Below are positions 4,201-35,519 of a stretch of 36,882 nt of DNA, in pieces; positions within the stretch are counted from its first letter, which is position 1; every line of letters begins with the position of its first letter. This DNA comes from Bacillota bacterium (GTDB lineage: Bacteria; Bacillota; Desulfotomaculia; Desulfotomaculales; Desulfallaceae). Under the pieces are notes generated by a model. That model was not told the DNA's origin, searched no databases, and saw only the letters and a list, made by a program, of their open reading frames with translations. The stretch is taken from assembly GCA_022360435.1 (NCBI GenBank), contig JAKSCU010000109.1, positions 1 to 36,882 on the forward strand. Reading direction: 5' to 3'. The position numbers and the translations under genes are program-made.

Positions 4201-4240
4201 CAAAAGCACCTCCTGCTGAATAGAGCGGGAGGTGCTTTTG
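4201..4240. terminator. Bidirectional terminator, dispersed repeat copy 1
   Basis: A hairpin with 13-bp arms (CAAAAGCACCTCC and GGAGGTGCTTTTG) around TGCTGAATAGAGC. U-runs occur on both strands, between the convergent symporter and DUF1836 genes. The hairpin, its loop and about 15 bases on the right (ending in CAGTTTAGCCC) recur almost unchanged at 8841-8900, again at a convergent junction. Confidence 0.85.
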
Positions 4241-8840: not shown

Positions 8841-8886
8841 GTCAAAAAGCACCTCCTGCCGAATAGAGCGGGAGGTGCTTTTTGAC
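8841..8886. terminator. Bidirectional terminator, dispersed repeat copy 2
   Basis: Arms of 16 bp (8841-8856 and 8871-8886, GTCAAAAAGCACCTCC and its complement) lie around the same loop as the copy at 4201-4240. It separates the convergent flotillin and LysR genes. The match to copy 1 extends to CAGTTTAGCCC on the right, so the two are copies of one element and not independent hairpins. Confidence 0.88.
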
Positions 8887-9940: not shown

Positions 9941-9984
9941 CTAAACCCCCATATGGCAAGGTACGCTTTCCTAAAATAAAATAA
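9941..9984 (+). repeat. Dispersed AT-rich repeat, copy
   Basis: This contains ATATGGC followed by GTACGCTTTCCTAAA and TAAAATAAA. The same series, with two mismatches in the right half, occurs at 18903-18940, and its left half also occurs at 11-36. Here it lies just upstream of the hyd promoter. Confidence 0.55.
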
Positions 9985-9993
9985 ATTTTATAC

Positions 9994-10207: not shown

Positions 10208-10249
10208 ACATTTAACTGGCAACATCTGGAACCAAAAGGAGGGTAAAAA

Positions 10250-10599: not shown

Positions 10600-10609
10600 T
10601 TTTACTTAA

Positions 10610-10689
10610 AACTATTTGCCAAGGCAGGTGTTCATGTAATGGAAAATAACTCCTCCAACTTGCAACAAACCCCACTTGCAACACCTAAC
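10610..10689 (+). repeat. Start-region repeat, copy A (with 33-bp ACTTGCAAC element)
   Basis: About 77 bases here match 12092-12169: the ribosome site, the ATG and the following codons. The last 33 bases (10657-10689) consist of two ACTTGCAAC units 16 bases apart followed by ACACCT. That 33-bp core also occurs on the minus strand at 34375-34407, at the start of anfO but in another reading frame. Confidence 0.85.
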
Positions 10690-12048
10690 ACCCGCCGGGC
10701 GGTGGAGAATTTCGCCGTCAGCGGTTGTCCGGTGCATCCCGCCCTGGTGCAAGCCCTGGCCGAAGTCAAGTGGGCAGCGGCCAAGGCCAATCAAAGAGCC
10801 GGGCTGCTGGATGAAAAGACTGCCGGGGCGATATGTGCGGCGGCCCGGGAGGTGGCTTCCGGCGGGCTGGCGGACCAGTTTATCGTTGACGCCCTGCAGG
10901 GCGGTGCCGGAACATCCACCAACATGAACATGAACGAAGTGCTGGCCAACCGGGCCATCGAGCTGCTGGGCGGACACAATGGCGACTATCGCCTGGTAGA
11001 CCCGTTAAGCCACGTCAACCTGTCCCAGTCCACCAACGACACGTACCCCACGGCGCTGCGGGTGGCCGCCATCCGTCTGGTGCTTGCTTTGAGTGAAACC
11101 ATGGCGGAACTGCAAAATACCCTGCAGGAAAAGGAAACGCAGTTCGCCGGGGTGCTTAAATTAGGCCGCACGGAAATGCAGGACGCCGTGCCGGTTACCC
11201 TGGGCCAGGAGTTCGGCGCCTTTGCCGAAGCCGTGGCGCGAGACCGGTGGCGCCTTTACAAGGTGGAGGAGCGCCTGCGCCAGGTAAACCTGGGCGGCAC
11301 CGCCGTGGGCACCGGATTGAACGCTTCCCGGAATTACATTTACCATGTGGTGGAAGAATTACGGGACATCACCGGCCTGGGGCTGGCCCGGGCGGAAAAC
11401 CTGCTGGACCTGACCCAAAATGCCGATGTTTTTGCCGAAGTGTCCGGATTGGTCAAAGCCGCCGCCGTGAACCAAGCCAAAATCGCCGGCGATCTGATGC
11501 TGATGGCATCCGGTCCCGCCGGGGGGTTGGCGGAAATTAACCTGCCCCCGCGCCAGATGGGTTCATCCATTATGCCGGGCAAAGTAAACCCGGTGATCCC
11601 GGAGATGGTTACCCAGGTAGCCTGGCAGGTGATGGGGGCGGATCTGGTAATCACCCAGGCCTGCGCGTCCGGAAGGCTGGAGCTTAATTCATACCTGCCG
11701 GTGGTGGCCCATAACCTGCTGCACGGACTGGAAATGCTGGCCAAAACCACCCGCCGTTTCGCCCACCTGTGCATCACCGGCATCACCGCCAACGAAGCCC
11801 GCTGCCGCCGGTGGCTGGAGGAAAGCGGCGCTCTGGCAACCGCCCTGGTGCCCTACATCGGCTATCACCGGGCCGCCGAGCTGGTTGAGGAAGCGCAACG
11901 CCGGAACAAGACCATTAAAGAACTGGCGCTTGAATATCAGTTGATCAACGAAGAAGAATGGGAGGCCATCACGGCGCCGGGCCAACTGACCCGCCCGGGC
12001 ATCGCCGGGAAGCGTGGGGACGGCTCTCTCCTTTTGCCAAGGCGGTAA
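10639..12048 (+). CDS. aspA: Aspartate ammonia-lyase homologue of the hyd maturation operon
   Basis: A 469-residue aspartase/fumarase superfamily protein. Conserved blocks are GGAGTSTNMNMNEVLANRA, HVNLSQSTNDTYPTA and the signature GSSIMPGKVNP (about residues 309-319), whose Ser is the catalytic base. Aspartase converts aspartate to fumarate and ammonia. Homologues are often encoded with hydE/F/G; a supply of ammonia for the azadithiolate bridge of the H-cluster is an attractive inference. Oddity: the usual N-terminal segment of the family (LGE..VP..AYYG before T.RA.ENF) is absent. The protein begins with MENNSSNLQQTPLATPNT, encoded by a repeat shared with hydF. Start at 10639 follows AAGGCAGGTG. 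Substrate preference between aspartate and fumarate/malate cannot be proved by eye. Confidence 0.85.
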   Translation: MENNSSNLQQTPLATPNTRRAVENFAVSGCPVHPALVQALAEVKWAAAKANQRAGLLDEKTAGAICAAAREVASGGLADQFIVDALQGGAGTSTNMNMNEVLANRAIELLGGHNGDYRLVDPLSHVNLSQSTNDTYPTALRVAAIRLVLALSETMAELQNTLQEKETQFAGVLKLGRTEMQDAVPVTLGQEFGAFAEAVARDRWRLYKVEERLRQVNLGGTAVGTGLNASRNYIYHVVEELRDITGLGLARAENLLDLTQNADVFAEVSGLVKAAAVNQAKIAGDLMLMASGPAGGLAEINLPPRQMGSSIMPGKVNPVIPEMVTQVAWQVMGADLVITQACASGRLELNSYLPVVAHNLLHGLEMLAKTTRRFAHLCITGITANEARCRRWLEESGALATALVPYIGYHRAAELVEEAQRRNKTIKELALEYQLINEEEWEAITAPGQLTRPGIAGKRGDGSLLLPRR

Positions 12049-12091
12049 AAGAACCATACGGCAATACCTGGGGTCGTCGTACATTTCAAAC

Positions 12092-12169
12092 AGTTCGCCA
12101 AGGAAGGTGTTCATGTTAATGGAAAATAATTACTCAAACTTGCCACAAACTCAACTTGCAACACCTGGC
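12092..12169 (+). repeat. Start-region repeat, copy B (with 33-bp ACTTGCAAC element)
   Basis: This matches 10612-10689 through the ribosome site, the ATG and the leader codons, with one indel and scattered changes. The core 33 bp is at 12137-12169. Compared with the anfO copy (34375-34407, minus) it differs at only three positions. Confidence 0.85.
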
Positions 12170-13387
12170 ACGCCTAGGGGCAGCAGGCTGCATATCGCCC
12201 TATTCGGCCGGCGCAACGCCGGCAAGTCCAGCCTGATTAACGCTATTACCGGCCAGGAACTGGCCATTGTTTCCCCGGTGGCCGGCACCACCGCCGACCC
12301 GGTGTACAAATCAATGGAAATTCTGCCCATCGGCCCGGTGGTGCTAATTGACACAGCGGGGTTGGACGACACCGGGGAACTGGGGCAAAAACGAGTGGCC
12401 AAGAGCGTGGCCGTGCTGGATAAAACCGACCTGGTACTGCTGGTGGTGGACCCGCAGCAAGGTTTCGGCGCGGTGGAACAACAAGTGACCGACACCGCCG
12501 TCAATAAACAGGTTCCTTTGCTGGTGGTAATAAACAAAATCGACCTGCTGCCCGACCCGGACGCCGGCCCGGCTACGCCGCCGGACCATCCCCGGGTGGC
12601 GGTGAGCGCCCTTACCGGCCAGGGCGTCGGTGAGTTGAAACAAGCCCTGGTCAAACTGGCCCCCAAGGACTGGACGGCGCCCACCATCGCCGGCGACCTG
12701 GTGCCTCCGGGGGAGGCGGCGCTGCTGGTGGCGCCCATCGACCTGGCGGCTCCCAAGGGGCGGCTGATCCTGCCCCAGGTGCAAACCATCCGGGACCTTT
12801 TGGACCACGACTGCCTGGCCATGGTAGTCAAGGAAAGGGAGTTGAAAGCCGCTTTGCAAAGGCTGACAAAACCCCCGGCCCTGGTGATCACCGACTCTCA
12901 AGCTTTTCTCAAAGTGGACGCCGACACGCCGCCCGGCGTGCCCATGACTTCCTTCTCCATCCTGTTCGCCCGCTACAAGGGCGACCTGGCCACCCTGGTG
13001 GCCGGCGCACTGGCGGTGGATGAGTTGCAGCCCGGCGATCCGGTGCTGATTGCCGAGGCCTGCACCCACCACCGGGTGGCCGACGACATCGGCACCGTGA
13101 AGATACCCCGCTGGCTGCGCCAAAACGTGGGCGGCCAGCTGGATTTCCACTGGTCCAGCGGTATCGAGTTGCCGCCGGATCTAACCAGATACAAGTTGAT
13201 TGTGCACTGTGGCGCCTGTATGATTAATCGCCGGGAAATGCTCAGCCGGATTATGGCCGCCCGGGCCGCCGGCGTGCCCATAGTAAACTACGGGGTCTTG
13301 ATCTCCCACATGCACGGCATCCTCAGGCGAACGCTGGGTCCTTTCCCCGGGGTGCTGGCCATGCTGGATCAAAAAGGTGTGTATTAA
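12119..13387 (+). CDS. hydF: [FeFe]-hydrogenase maturation GTPase HydF
   Basis: A 422-residue scaffold GTPase that receives the 2Fe precursor and passes it to HydA. GTPase motifs are G1 GRRNAGKSS (about residues 28-36), DTAGLDD and NKIDLL. The C-terminal cluster-binding motif is present as CTH followed far downstream by HCGAC, the CxH...HCxxC pattern that ligates the [4Fe-4S] cluster. The start at 12119 follows AAGGAAGGTG; an ATG two codons earlier (12113) is possible. The first 16 residues (MENNYSNLPQTQLATP) are encoded by the repeat shared with the aspartase homologue and are not part of the conserved fold. hydE begins immediately after the stop. Confidence 0.96.
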   Translation: MENNYSNLPQTQLATPGTPRGSRLHIALFGRRNAGKSSLINAITGQELAIVSPVAGTTADPVYKSMEILPIGPVVLIDTAGLDDTGELGQKRVAKSVAVLDKTDLVLLVVDPQQGFGAVEQQVTDTAVNKQVPLLVVINKIDLLPDPDAGPATPPDHPRVAVSALTGQGVGELKQALVKLAPKDWTAPTIAGDLVPPGEAALLVAPIDLAAPKGRLILPQVQTIRDLLDHDCLAMVVKERELKAALQRLTKPPALVITDSQAFLKVDADTPPGVPMTSFSILFARYKGDLATLVAGALAVDELQPGDPVLIAEACTHHRVADDIGTVKIPRWLRQNVGGQLDFHWSSGIELPPDLTRYKLIVHCGACMINRREMLSRIMAARAAGVPIVNYGVLISHMHGILRRTLGPFPGVLAMLDQKGVY

Positions 13388-18878: not shown

Positions 18879-18889
18879 ATACTAAATCC

Positions 18890-18940
18890 TTAATTTCGAC
18901 CATAAATATGGCCGAGTATGCTTTCCTAAAGTAAAATAAA
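18890..18940 (+). repeat. Dispersed AT-rich repeat, fullest copy
   Basis: The left part (CGACCATAAATATGGCCGA) matches 11-36 at about 22 of 26 positions. The right part (GTATGCTTTCCTAAAG and TAAAATAAA) matches 9961-9984 with two differences. This copy joins both halves. Confidence 0.6.
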
Positions 18941-24435: not shown

Positions 24436-24471
24436 TTATGCCGGATGTAATAAGATTTGCATGTTAATTTT

Positions 24472-24490
24472 GGGGACACCTTACTTAATT
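24472..24490 (+). repeat. Stop-proximal GGGGACACC element, copy 1
   Basis: GGGGACACCTTACTTAATT, 36 bases after the nadE stop and in the nadE orientation. It is identical over 19 bases to 27495-27513, and two variant copies lie on the minus strand (28172-28189 and 33762-33779). Confidence 0.85.
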
Positions 24491-26645: not shown

Positions 26646-27494
26646 TTGGGTCAACTGAATTTCTCCATACTGCAATACGAATTTATGCACAATGCGCTAT
26701 TGGCCGGCTGCCTTGGCGGCGTGGCTTGTTCCCTCATCGGTGTGCTGGTGGTAACCATGGGCCTGTCTTTCATTGGCGTCGCCATCGCCCACGCTGCCTT
26801 TGCCGGCGCCTTGTTCGGCACTTTTATGGGCTTCAGCCCCGAAGTCGGGGCGTTTGCTTTCAGCCTGGCGGCCGTGGCCACCATCGGTCCCCTTGCCGAC
26901 CGGGGAGAACTGAACACCGATATACCCATCGGCATCGTGTTTTCCCTGACCATGGGATTGGCTTTTTTGTTTATGGGTATCATGCCGGGCCCGAAAACCG
27001 ACGCCTTGGAACTCCTCTGGGGCAGTATTCTTACCATAACCCGCTCCGATTTGGCTTTGTTGTTTGTTGTAGCATTAATTATTGTTTTGCTCATAGCTTT
27101 GTTTTTTAAAGAAATACAGGCAGTAATATTTCATCGGGAAGTCGCTTTGGCCGTCGGCCTTCCGGCCAACTTTATCTTTTACGCTCTTCTTATACTAACC
27201 GGTTCGGCCATTACGGTTTCCCTGGGCAGCATCGGCGGTCTACTGATTTTCAACTTGATTCTCAATCCTGCCGCGGCGGCTTACCAGTTGACTTACAGTT
27301 TACGGAATATGTTTATCCTCTCCGCATTATTCGGGGTCCTTTCCAGTTGGATTGGCCTCATGCTTTCATACATGTTTCATTTCCCCAGCGGGGCGTCCAT
27401 TGTGTTGGTTTCCACGTTGATATTTATCGCCGCCGCCGTTTTTTCACCCAAGCGCCGGGTTAAAAAGTGGCGGGGAGCCAGCATTAAAATTTAA
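26646..27494 (+). CDS. Metal ABC transporter permease (ABC-3 family)
   Basis: A 282-residue integral membrane protein of the ZnuB/MntC family with about eight hydrophobic segments (for example SLIGVLVVTMGLSFIGVAIAHAAFAGA and GSAITVSLGSIGGLLIFNLIL in pieces). The family start sequence FMHNALLAGCLGGVACSLIGV is present. The start is unclear: TTG 26646 directly follows GGGAG, CTG 26655 is better spaced and ATG 26685 is the first ATG. The stop codon (TTTAAGGGG) lies inside the copy-2 stop-proximal element, so the last residues may have been changed by it. It forms the pore of the importer encoded with the two upstream genes. Confidence 0.88.
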   Translation: MGQLNFSILQYEFMHNALLAGCLGGVACSLIGVLVVTMGLSFIGVAIAHAAFAGALFGTFMGFSPEVGAFAFSLAAVATIGPLADRGELNTDIPIGIVFSLTMGLAFLFMGIMPGPKTDALELLWGSILTITRSDLALLFVVALIIVLLIALFFKEIQAVIFHREVALAVGLPANFIFYALLILTGSAITVSLGSIGGLLIFNLILNPAAAAYQLTYSLRNMFILSALFGVLSSWIGLMLSYMFHFPSGASIVLVSTLIFIAAAVFSPKRRVKKWRGASIKI

Positions 27495-27513
27495 GGGGAC
27501 ACCTTACTTAATT
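27491..27513 (+). repeat. Stop-proximal GGGGACACC element, copy 2
   Basis: The element provides or touches the TAA stop of the metal permease gene and has the same orientation as that gene. Its core (27495-27513) is identical to copy 1. Together with copy 3 it brackets the methyltransferase gene as an inverted pair. Confidence 0.88.
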
Positions 27514-27543
27514 AGTTTTTAGAATTATTCGGGAGGAAGCAAC

Positions 27544-28171: not shown

Positions 28172-28197
28172 AATTAAGTAAGATGTCCCTTTAATTA
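28172..28197 (-). repeat. Stop-proximal GGGGACACC element, copy 3
   Basis: Minus-strand variant (TAATTAAAGGGACATC then TTACTTAATT). Its TAA is the stop codon of the short transporter ATPase gene (28195-28791), and it has the same orientation as that gene. Confidence 0.82.
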
Positions 28198-33322: not shown

Positions 33323-33761
33323 GCCGTCACTCCATTACTTTAATATCTTTTTTTCTTGCCAAGCGTCTTGCTAAAAACACTTTAAACTTGTCGCCTTTGC
33401 CAATAAGTTTAACGCAAAAAAACCACGAGAAAGTAACCCTACCATACCGGTAAAGCACAAACCTTCGTGGTTCATTTTTATCTGCCTAAATTATAAGCAT
33501 ATTAAGTTGTCTGCTTGCCGGGAAAACGCTTAAAAGTGCGTTTTACTTATTTATCTTACCACATGGCCTCATTCTAGTAAATGCAAAAACCACAAAAGTA
33601 TCCCCCGGGGAAATACTTTCATGGTTTATAGCTATAACAGCATGCTTGCCAAAATTATTTTCAGCCCCCCTTTCCCAAAGGTTGCCGGCCAAGAAAAAGC
33701 TATATCGCCGGCCCATGCAGACAGAGCTTTTTAGTTGAAAAAAGAAGCATATCAAGTTGAT
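33323..33761. other. Intergenic region with hairpins
   Basis: About 440 bases with no supported gene. Two related hairpins occur. At 33420-33472, AACCACGA pairs with TCGTGGTT. At 33584-33636, a nearly perfect inverted repeat runs from AACCAC through AAAGTAT and CCCC to GGGG, ATACTTT and TGGTT. AGCATATTAAGTTG (33496) and AGCATATCAAGTTG (33747) are also repeated. The region holds the promoter of the transporter operon and the 3' flank of anfO. Confidence 0.5.
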
Positions 33762-33786
33762 AATTTAGTATGGTGTCCCCTTAATT
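33762..33786 (-). repeat. Stop-proximal GGGGACACC element, copy 4
   Basis: Minus-strand copy (TAATTAAGGGGACACC then ATACTAAATT). It encodes the last seven residues (VIKGTPY and neighbours) and the stop of anfO, and has the same orientation as anfO. Confidence 0.85.
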
Positions 33787-34415
33787 ACCAGTTTGATTTC
33801 TCCCCGGCCCGTACTTAAAACTTCGCCTTTCAGCAAACCCGTGGCAAATTCGGCTTCCAGCCAGGGCGGCACATGGCTGCAGGTAATTTCAAGTTCGCAA
33901 AACTCGCCCCGGCCCAGGAAGGGCCGCAGCACTTGCTTGGATGTCACACCGCTGTCGCCGTCCTGTATTTCCTTGATGGAAATCCGGTAGCGCCCCCGCC
34001 CCACCTCCACCGGCACCGGCAGCATAAAGGTCCCTTTGCCCAACTTGCTTTCTTTTTCCTCCCGTTCCATAACGTAATCAAGAAAATTGTCGGGCTTGCC
34101 CTGCATTTCCCAGACCGTGCATTTGGCTTTTTCCAATTCGAAATATGCTATCCCGGTAACGGTATGACCCACGAAAATTCTGCATTCACCCATAAACTCG
34201 ACCATTTCGCGCATCATCCGGCGCAGCCCGCCCATACCCGCCCCGGCAACCGGGTAAAACCCTTTTTCCCGGCCCACCGTCCAGCCGCCCCGGCTTTTAC
34301 CGTACACCATCAGTTGGCCCGGGTCACTGAGCGACGCCGTTTCACCATGTTTACCCAGGTAAACCGCTATTGACGCCAGGTGTTGCAAGTTGGTTTTGTT
34401 GCAAGTTGATACCAT
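33765..34415 (-). CDS. anfO: AnfO family nitrogenase accessory protein
   Basis: A 216-residue protein of the AnfO family, first named from Fe-only nitrogenase loci. The conserved region starts at IAVYLGKHGETASL and includes GGWTVGREKGF, FMGECRIFVGHTVTGIAYFELEKAKCTVWEMQGKP in pieces, FLDYVMEREE, GVTSKQVLRPFLGRGEFCELEI and HVPPWLEAEFATG. The biochemical role is unknown. ATG 34415 has GGGGTGG six bases upstream. Two anomalies: the first codons are the 33-bp ACTTGCAAC element shared with aspA and hydF, and the last codons plus the stop are a copy of the GGGGACACC element. The gene is thus bounded at both ends by repeats. It follows nifB on the same strand. Confidence 0.85.
   Translation of the reverse strand: MVSTCNKTNLQHLASIAVYLGKHGETASLSDPGQLMVYGKSRGGWTVGREKGFYPVAGAGMGGLRRMMREMVEFMGECRIFVGHTVTGIAYFELEKAKCTVWEMQGKPDNFLDYVMEREEKESKLGKGTFMLPVPVEVGRGRYRISIKEIQDGDSGVTSKQVLRPFLGRGEFCELEITCSHVPPWLEAEFATGLLKGEVLSTGRGEIKLVIKGTPY
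34375..34407 (-). repeat. 33-bp ACTTGCAAC element, copy C
   Basis: On the minus strand two ACTTGCAAC units lie 16 bases apart, ending in ACACCTGGC. It matches 12137-12169 at 30 of 33 positions and 10657-10689 at 29 of 33, but is read in a different frame from those copies. Confidence 0.88.
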
Positions 34416-34531: not shown

Positions 34532-35482
34532 TTATGACGCCGCCACCACTTTTTCCGGCCGGCAGCCGCCGCAATTGGTTTCGGTTTGTTTGCCGGCGTC
34601 GGCGAATTCCCGGGACCGGTCCTCGCCCAACAAGCCGACGGCGTCGGCCCGGCACTGTTTGCAATGGCGCATTTGCGGCATATCCCGGCCGCAAAGATCG
34701 CGCATGCGGTTCAGTTCCGCGGCGCCGGTGGGAGCGCAGTCCTGAAACACACTGCCCGGAGCGGGCACCAGCGGCATAATGTTGGTGATAAACGCGCCCA
34801 GTTCCTTCATCCGCCGCACCACTTCCGGAACCTCGTCGTCATTAACGCCCGTGATCATTACAATATTCACTTTAACCAGCACCCCGTTGGCGGCCAAATA
34901 CCCGATGCCTTGCTGCTGGTTGCGCAGCAAAACCTCCGCTCCCGCCGCTCCCCGGTATACTTGGCCCCGGTAACCGACATACCGGTAAATCCGGGAGCCC
35001 GTGGCCCTTTCAAGGCAGTTGACCGTCACCGTGATGTGTCGGACGCCCAGGGCCACAATCTCCCGGGCGTAGTCCGGCAGCATCAAGCCATTGGTGGACA
35101 GGCAGAGAATTACTTCCGGATCGGCTTCTTTTATCAATTTTATGGTTTTCCCGGTGCTTTCCCAGTTGGCCAGGGCATCTCCCGGCCCGGCGATACCCAC
35201 CACGCTGAGATTGGCCACCTTTTCCCGCACCAGCAGGAATTTGTCCCTGGCTGCCTCGGGAGTCAATATTTTGCTGGTCACACCCGGCCTGCTTTCGTTC
35301 ACGCAGTCGAACTTGCGGTGACAGTAATTGCAGCCAATGTTGCACCGGGGCGCCACCGGCAGATGCATCCGGGCATACTTGCCATGAGCTTCCCGTGCAT
35401 AACAGGGGTGCCGGCGGATGCTCTCCGGCGCGCCGGACTCCTCCCGCTCCGGCTGAATGTCTTTTGCCCGGCCACTGTCCAA
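34532..35482 (-). CDS. nifB: Nitrogenase cofactor biosynthesis radical SAM protein NifB
   Basis: About 316 residues. The N-terminal core holds HPCYAREAHGKYARMHLPVAP and the SAM cluster motif CNIGCNYCHRKFDC, the exact NifB pattern. Also conserved are GIAGPGDALANWE, STNGLMLPDYA and VNIVMITGVNDDEV. The C-terminus has RHCKQCRADAVGLLGED, holding cysteines for the extra clusters that form NifB-co. There is no fused NifX domain, as usual in Firmicutes and archaea. TTG 35482 with GAGGTG six bases upstream is preferred. The ATG at 35509 lies in an inverted repeat. It makes the 8Fe-9S-C precursor for the nitrogenase cofactor and follows nifN on the same strand. Confidence 0.95.
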   Translation of the reverse strand: MDSGRAKDIQPEREESGAPESIRRHPCYAREAHGKYARMHLPVAPRCNIGCNYCHRKFDCVNESRPGVTSKILTPEAARDKFLLVREKVANLSVVGIAGPGDALANWESTGKTIKLIKEADPEVILCLSTNGLMLPDYAREIVALGVRHITVTVNCLERATGSRIYRYVGYRGQVYRGAAGAEVLLRNQQQGIGYLAANGVLVKVNIVMITGVNDDEVPEVVRRMKELGAFITNIMPLVPAPGSVFQDCAPTGAAELNRMRDLCGRDMPQMRHCKQCRADAVGLLGEDRSREFADAGKQTETNCGGCRPEKVVAAS

Positions 35483-35501
35483 TATAATCACCTCACATAC
35501 C

Positions 35502-35519
35502 GGGGACATTACCGTCCCC
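35502..35519. repeat. GGGGAC/GTCCCC inverted repeat between nifN and nifB
   Basis: GGGGAC-6-GTCCCC (6-bp arms) about 30 bases after the nifN-like stop. It covers the first ATG of the nifB frame. It resembles the GGGGAC core of the stop-proximal elements. Confidence 0.6.

Follow-up and report, generated by a model that had tools for sequence, protein, structure and literature searches.

A palindromic repeat at the starts of hydF, aspA and anfO belongs to a dispersed family with a likely RAYT/TIRYT-kind partner transposase

The 36,882-nt stretch of DNA analysed here (the window) carries three copies of a two-unit repeat, ACTTGCAAC-N7-ACTTGCAAC, at 10658-10682 (plus strand), 12138-12162 (plus strand, one mismatch) and 34382-34406 (minus strand). 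Each copy lies at the start of a gene, and the gene names given in a preliminary description of this DNA were confirmed: aspartate ammonia-lyase (aspA), HydF and AnfO. With up to three mismatches allowed, the window count was exactly three versus 0.06 expected from shuffled sequences, none of which gave three. The anfO copy of the 33-mer originally described is identical to the aspA copy at 29 of 33 positions and to the hydF copy at 30 of 33, yet it is translated in another frame, as had been noted: the encoded peptides are ..NLQQTPLATP (aspA) and ..NLPQTQLATPGT (hydF) versus ..TCNKTNLQHLAS (anfO). A conserved-peptide reading was rejected because the repeat is read in two frames, and these data support the earlier proposal that copying acted on DNA rather than on peptide. 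The 33-mer proved too short, the element reaching about 3-4 nt beyond it on the tip side (..ACACCTGGCACC). The features are as follows.

10606..10692, plus strand: aspA leader, a duplicate of the hydF leader (ribosome binding site, start codon and repeat) in place of the native aspA N-terminus
10639..12048, plus strand: aspA (aspartate ammonia-lyase), with homology to relatives from residue 17
10656..10692, plus strand: single-arm repeat copy at the 5' end of aspA, in frame, predicted to be translated as SNLQQTPLATPNT
12085..12172, plus strand: hydF leader, the likely source of the aspA duplicate
12122..13387, plus strand: hydF (H-cluster maturation GTPase), with family homology from residue 17, directly past the repeat-encoded part
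12136..12172, plus strand: single-arm repeat copy at the 5' end of hydF, in frame, predicted to be translated as SNLPQTQLATPGT; the insertion is common to two congeners
33765..34415, minus strand: anfO (Fe-only nitrogenase accessory protein), with homology to relatives from residues 14-15
34372..34408, minus strand: single-arm repeat copy directly 3' of the anfO start codon, in the other frame, predicted to be read as STCNKTNLQHLAS
10215..10233, plus strand: possible degenerate copy of the repeat tip, 16 nt before the TM1266 regulator gene (three mismatches in 19), doubtful

The tip-pattern search that gave the doubtful copy at 10215-10233 also gave one match with the reversed control pattern. 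A NifB-like radical SAM protein is encoded directly upstream of anfO (34532-35509, minus strand), beside a nifN/nifK-like gene.

The repeat was then sought by pattern search in the home genome (G000; 3.5 Mb in 626 contigs, flagged as 6.9% contaminated) and in related genomes, most of them drafts. Two of these, Desulfotomaculum sp. BL5_bin.2 (G001) and Peptococcaceae bacterium BRH_c8a (G002), belong to the same genus as the home organism and carry 64 and 142 tips, respectively, with up to two mismatches. Their repeats are mostly inverted pairs, for example GGTGCCAGGTGTTGCAAGTTGGATTTGTTGCAAATC TAGATTTGCAACAAATCCAACTTGCAACACCTGGCACC, together with lone arms that have exactly the two-unit structure of the preliminary description. 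The 33-mer therefore makes up a single arm of a palindrome. The dispersed palindrome is GGTGCCAGGTGTTGCAAGTT...AACTTGCAACACCTGGCACC, with arms of about 37 nt plus AAAG that read GGTGCCAGGTGTTGCAAGT. Each arm consists of a tail (an AT-rich stretch followed by CCAG), the body CAACTTGCAACAAAnnCAACTTGCAACACC and the tip TGGCACC, after which AAAG usually comes. A consensus built from 40 two-unit singlets shows CCAG in the tail and contains no GTAG (or CGTC) tetranucleotide. Inverted doublets numbered 47, one of which (74 nt) folds at -63.9 kcal/mol (z -15.6), and the inverted arm pairs that enclose no gene mostly span 28-76 bp. The home genome gave 14 two-unit matches and 18 tip matches (ACTTGCAACACCTGGCACC, up to three mismatches), the reversed controls giving 0-1. 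This amounts to about 16-25 copies, mostly decayed, with only four exact tips.

A search for Y1_Tnp genes revealed long single genes with inverted arms on both sides, tips outward and about 1.05-1.15 kb apart, in five genomes from four genera (G001, G002, G004, G005 and G008). In these five genomes and in G009 a Y1_Tnp gene adjoins argS, although the argS-linked gene of G009 has no recognisable arms. The NCBIfam model REP_Tyr_transpos (NF047646) was the top match for all three transposases tested, with scores of 78-85 bits around the cut-off of 80 (one above, two just below). The transposase scored 57 bits against PF01797, its nearest solved structure is TnpA_REP 4er8, and the HUH motif and catalytic tyrosine are conserved (NHVHW and ARYIHLNP). 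Bac_DnaA_C was the top match for all three C-termini (E 0.005, 1e-06 and 2e-04), in each case below the Pfam cut-off. At argS in the home genome only the first 39 residues of the transposase plus out-of-frame scraps are left between two arms. As the gene is wrecked, the home-genome copies are relics, and the family there looks dead. The loci fetched from G013 and G011 (L041, L044, L056 and L058) yielded no bracketed transposase, although these genomes are rich in TTTCAA repeats, with 122 and 37 exact TTTCAACACCYGGCACC copies, respectively.

The dispersed copies match the transposase locus of their own genome. The TTGCAA variant is present in 53 copies in G001 and 122 in G002 and is missing from G004, G005 and G008, whereas the TTTCAA variant has 23, 15 and 73 copies in the latter three genomes and only five each in G001 and G002. 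In each case the dispersed variant follows the arms of the argS transposase. Vertical inheritance of the argS locus was established. Copies lie at the same place across species at hydF, argS, purH, the end of ligA and the start of the HMG-CoA lyase gene; other sites differ. A 72-bp inverted pair of G002 is missing from G001 where the flanks match, and at a second site one singlet has become two in G002. The shared copies together with those present in one species and absent from another indicate that the family spread before the genus split and went on spreading afterwards. The fetched loci, a set enriched for copies, contained no exact empty site accompanied by a duplicated target, and 19 bases stay unmatched in the best presence/absence pair. 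The recurrence of TTACC beside some copies prompted consideration of an IS608-like TTAC target, an idea set aside because in the 65-bp class the motif is on the wrong side.

The singlets of G001 and G002 are placed at gene edges with a fixed polarity. Of 30 intergenic singlets, 25 have a start or a convergent stop no more than 60 nt from the tip (GGCACC), against an expectation of 27% (p = 2e-10). Downstream starts account for 13 of the 30 (14% expected, p = 9e-5) and convergent stops for 12 (13% expected, p = 2e-4). For the tail end the corresponding count is 8 of 24, near chance. The joint edge bias holds in G002 alone, where the copies are separate loci (p = 1e-6), and the few copies of the home genome point the same way. 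Although the loci are 83% coding, only 9 of the 39 singlets of the two congeners overlap a coding sequence, all at gene edges, and mid-gene insertions numbered zero among the 39. Note that gene starts were taken from a simple gene caller that rewards ribosome sites, and thus the start distances carry some error. The outcome named as refuting in the preliminary description, random placement without a start-codon bias, was thus not observed for the single arms; the bias concerns gene edges in general rather than starts alone. Of the earlier suggestion of a mobile start-region cassette, the mobile element at gene starts stands and the specificity for start codons does not, as single arms are found at convergent stops about as often. 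Either targeting or selection could cause the edge bias. Selection explains the absence of copies inside genes but does not easily explain the polarity, and so directed insertion is possible.

At hydF the insertion is in frame and common to three species (G000, G001 and G002). In the two congeners the gene reads ATGGAAAAT..[arm]..ATGCACGATACGCCCCGG: the arm is preceded by a ribosome site and start codon and directly followed by the native start, MHDTPRG. In most relatives that lack the insertion HydF starts with M-[HN]-[ED]-TPR or near it. In the home genome a 12-nt gap removes the native start including its ATG, and hence translation most likely proceeds from upstream, the first ~18 residues coming from the repeat-bearing leader. 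To judge from the sequence, the repeat is probably translated there as the N-terminus of HydF.

The aspA copy has a different origin. The aspA and hydF leaders match over about 80 bp (10606-10691 versus 12085-12171), and this longer common leader holds the ribosome site, in agreement with the preliminary description. In aspA the N-terminus of relatives, including the AYYGIHT motif, has been replaced by the copied hydF leader, homology beginning at residue 17 in nearly all close matches. The putative aspartase of the hyd operon is without, at 10639-10700, the LEKDLLGELPVPAxAYYGIHT N-terminus conserved in relatives. Because the aspA copy duplicates the hydF leader, the window copies are not three independent events. 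Upstream of aspA there is a full palindrome of the variant TTTTACACCCGGCACC in G009 (L143) and a degenerate TTTCAA-like arm in G008 (L139), suggesting that the aspA slot has been struck repeatedly. AnfO homology begins at residues 14-15 in nearly all relatives. The anfO genes of G002 and G008 also have an arm (degenerate in G008), but it sits before the ribosome site, and the home-genome insertion is best read as a separate event.

We hold with considerable confidence that the 33-mer represents one singlet from a dispersed palindromic family that pairs, as the non-autonomous member, with a single-copy HUH/Y1 transposase (RAYT/TIRYT kind), and that arms landed at hydF and anfO. In this scheme the transposase gene at argS sits between two arms with tips outward, the inverted arm pairs without a gene are the miniature form, and the lone arms are singlets. 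From the sequence evidence, the argS-locus transposase likely mobilises the repeats, and it would do so by single-stranded transposition, as do other Y1 enzymes. Before the genus split, one ancestral arm would have inserted at the hydF 5' end, where translation from the upstream ATGGAAAAT probably ran through it in frame. The home lineage would then have lost the native hydF ATG, fixing ~18 leader-encoded HydF residues. The hydF leader would later have been duplicated onto aspA, and a separate arm would have landed inside the anfO start.

The preliminary description also raised a regulator binding site or an RNA control site, in which the palindromic TTGCAA and the units 16 bp apart would serve a dimeric regulator or an RNA structure that co-regulates the tagged genes. 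Many singlets do lie just upstream of a ribosome site or directly after a start codon, and for the consensus singlet folding gives a modest hairpin (-8.3 kcal/mol, z -2.2). However, the same arm brackets a transposase gene, arms occur at convergent stops about as often, and one congener has more than 100 copies, mostly inverted pairs. Moreover, in folding the three window copies show no advantage over shuffles (z 0.69, -0.66 and 1.34), an Rfam search of the window gave no matches, and no function is common to the tagged genes. The proposed metalloenzyme-assembly theme likewise finds no support, given the further copies at argS, purH, ligA, the HMG-CoA lyase gene and elsewhere. We consider a regulatory origin improbable, and a sigma-54 or other regulator-site reading was rejected on the copy number and the bracketed transposase, although individual copies may have been co-opted as control sites.

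Alternatively, the arms could be the terminal inverted repeats or MITEs of an unrelated transposon, the argS-linked Y1 gene being a bystander with two copies beside it. Where a genome holds more than 100 copies, two near a gene could be coincidence, and G013 and G011 are rich in repeats although their fetched loci include no bracketed Y1 gene. Yet five genomes from four genera show the bracketing, always with tips outward, the arm variant and the dispersed-copy variant change together, and genomes with a dead gene or none (G000, G003, G006 and G012) have few copies. Such a coincidence seems very unlikely. Local duplication alone among metalloenzyme genes, without transposition, deserves even less credence. 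It holds for the aspA/hydF pair with its matching leaders, but anfO has the arm without the leader, and the arms at anfO of G002 and G008 are elsewhere, upstream of the ribosome site. The copies at unrelated genes throughout the genome refute it as a full account.

The transposase-partnered repeat family inferred here resembles known systems. TIRtrons and their TIRYT genes (PMC3733652) are equated with TnpA_REP subclass 2.1 in PMC6006769. Such systems have an IS200-like Y1/HUH transposase of the RAYT type with a DnaA-like helix-turn-helix C-terminus, as here. They also share a transposase gene flanked by long terminal inverted repeats (in five genomes here), with repeats also dispersed as singlets, dimers and clusters. 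Unlike many TIRYT repeats the present arms lack GGGGWSAS, a motif of many but not all of them and thus not strictly defining; other terminal inverted repeats are described as unrelated to one another (PMC3733652). The family also resembles REP/REPIN sequences and RAYTs (PMC3116915, PMC3733652) in its short dispersed palindromic units, present as singlets and as inverted doublets that form a hairpin, and in its vertically inherited tyrosine transposase with the same repeat at its ends. In contrast to REP/REPIN sequences, the arms have no GTAG (or CGTC) tag, and the doublet, instead of two small hairpins, is a single near-perfect palindrome whose arms reach up to about 37 bp. Published REPs are mostly placed near gene 3' ends; the present repeats are mostly intergenic, with singlets about equally at starts and convergent stops. 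In-frame insertions in coding genes, including N-termini, are shared with the Rickettsia palindromic elements and intragenic REPs summarised in PMC3733652; in contrast to these, an associated transposase is identifiable here and the insertions are confined to gene edges. The main texts of PMC3733652 and PMC6006769 name no Desulfotomaculum or Pelotomaculum example, nor did we find in them a description of fixed-polarity singlets at gene starts or convergent stops. A literature search for REP repeats in Desulfotomaculum or Firmicutes returned nothing relevant.

Other repeats were seen in the window. A second dispersed repeat, with ends like TTAAGGGGACACCTTACTTAATTA, occurs in both orientations at 24465-24490, 27491-27514, 28172-28197 and 33761-33784, and its GGGGACAC fits the GGGGWSAS reported for other TIRYT repeats. 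Two 38-bp hairpins, AAAAGCACCTCCTGC.GAATAGAGCGGGAGGTGCTTTT, at 4202-4239 and 8845-8882 are 97% identical and are possibly a repeated terminator. An intergenic repeat resembling ATATGGCCGAGTATGCTTTCCTAAAGTAAAATAAA is found at 9951-9985 and 18889-18940 (86% identical), with a related piece at 9-34.

The repeat family adds a new example to a type already known, and its partner transposase is identifiable. It places a RAYT/TIRYT repeat system, complete with an inferred transposase locus, in Desulfotomaculum-related bacteria, for which none was described in the literature searched. The genomes form a natural series for the life and death of such repeats, from an intact gene with many copies, through a dead gene with relics, to an absent gene with few or no copies. 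The family also cautions that shared leader motifs need not mean regulons. Two features are of most interest: the polarity of the singlets at gene edges, and a HydF N-terminus that probably derives from the repeat. That a RAYT-type transposase, by placing single arms in a fixed orientation at gene edges (ribosome sites, start codons and convergent stop codons), repeatedly supplies proteins with new N-termini, as in HydF, is a speculative proposal about which we remain doubtful. The polar placement and the lost start of HydF nevertheless make the creation of new protein N-termini by repeats testable.
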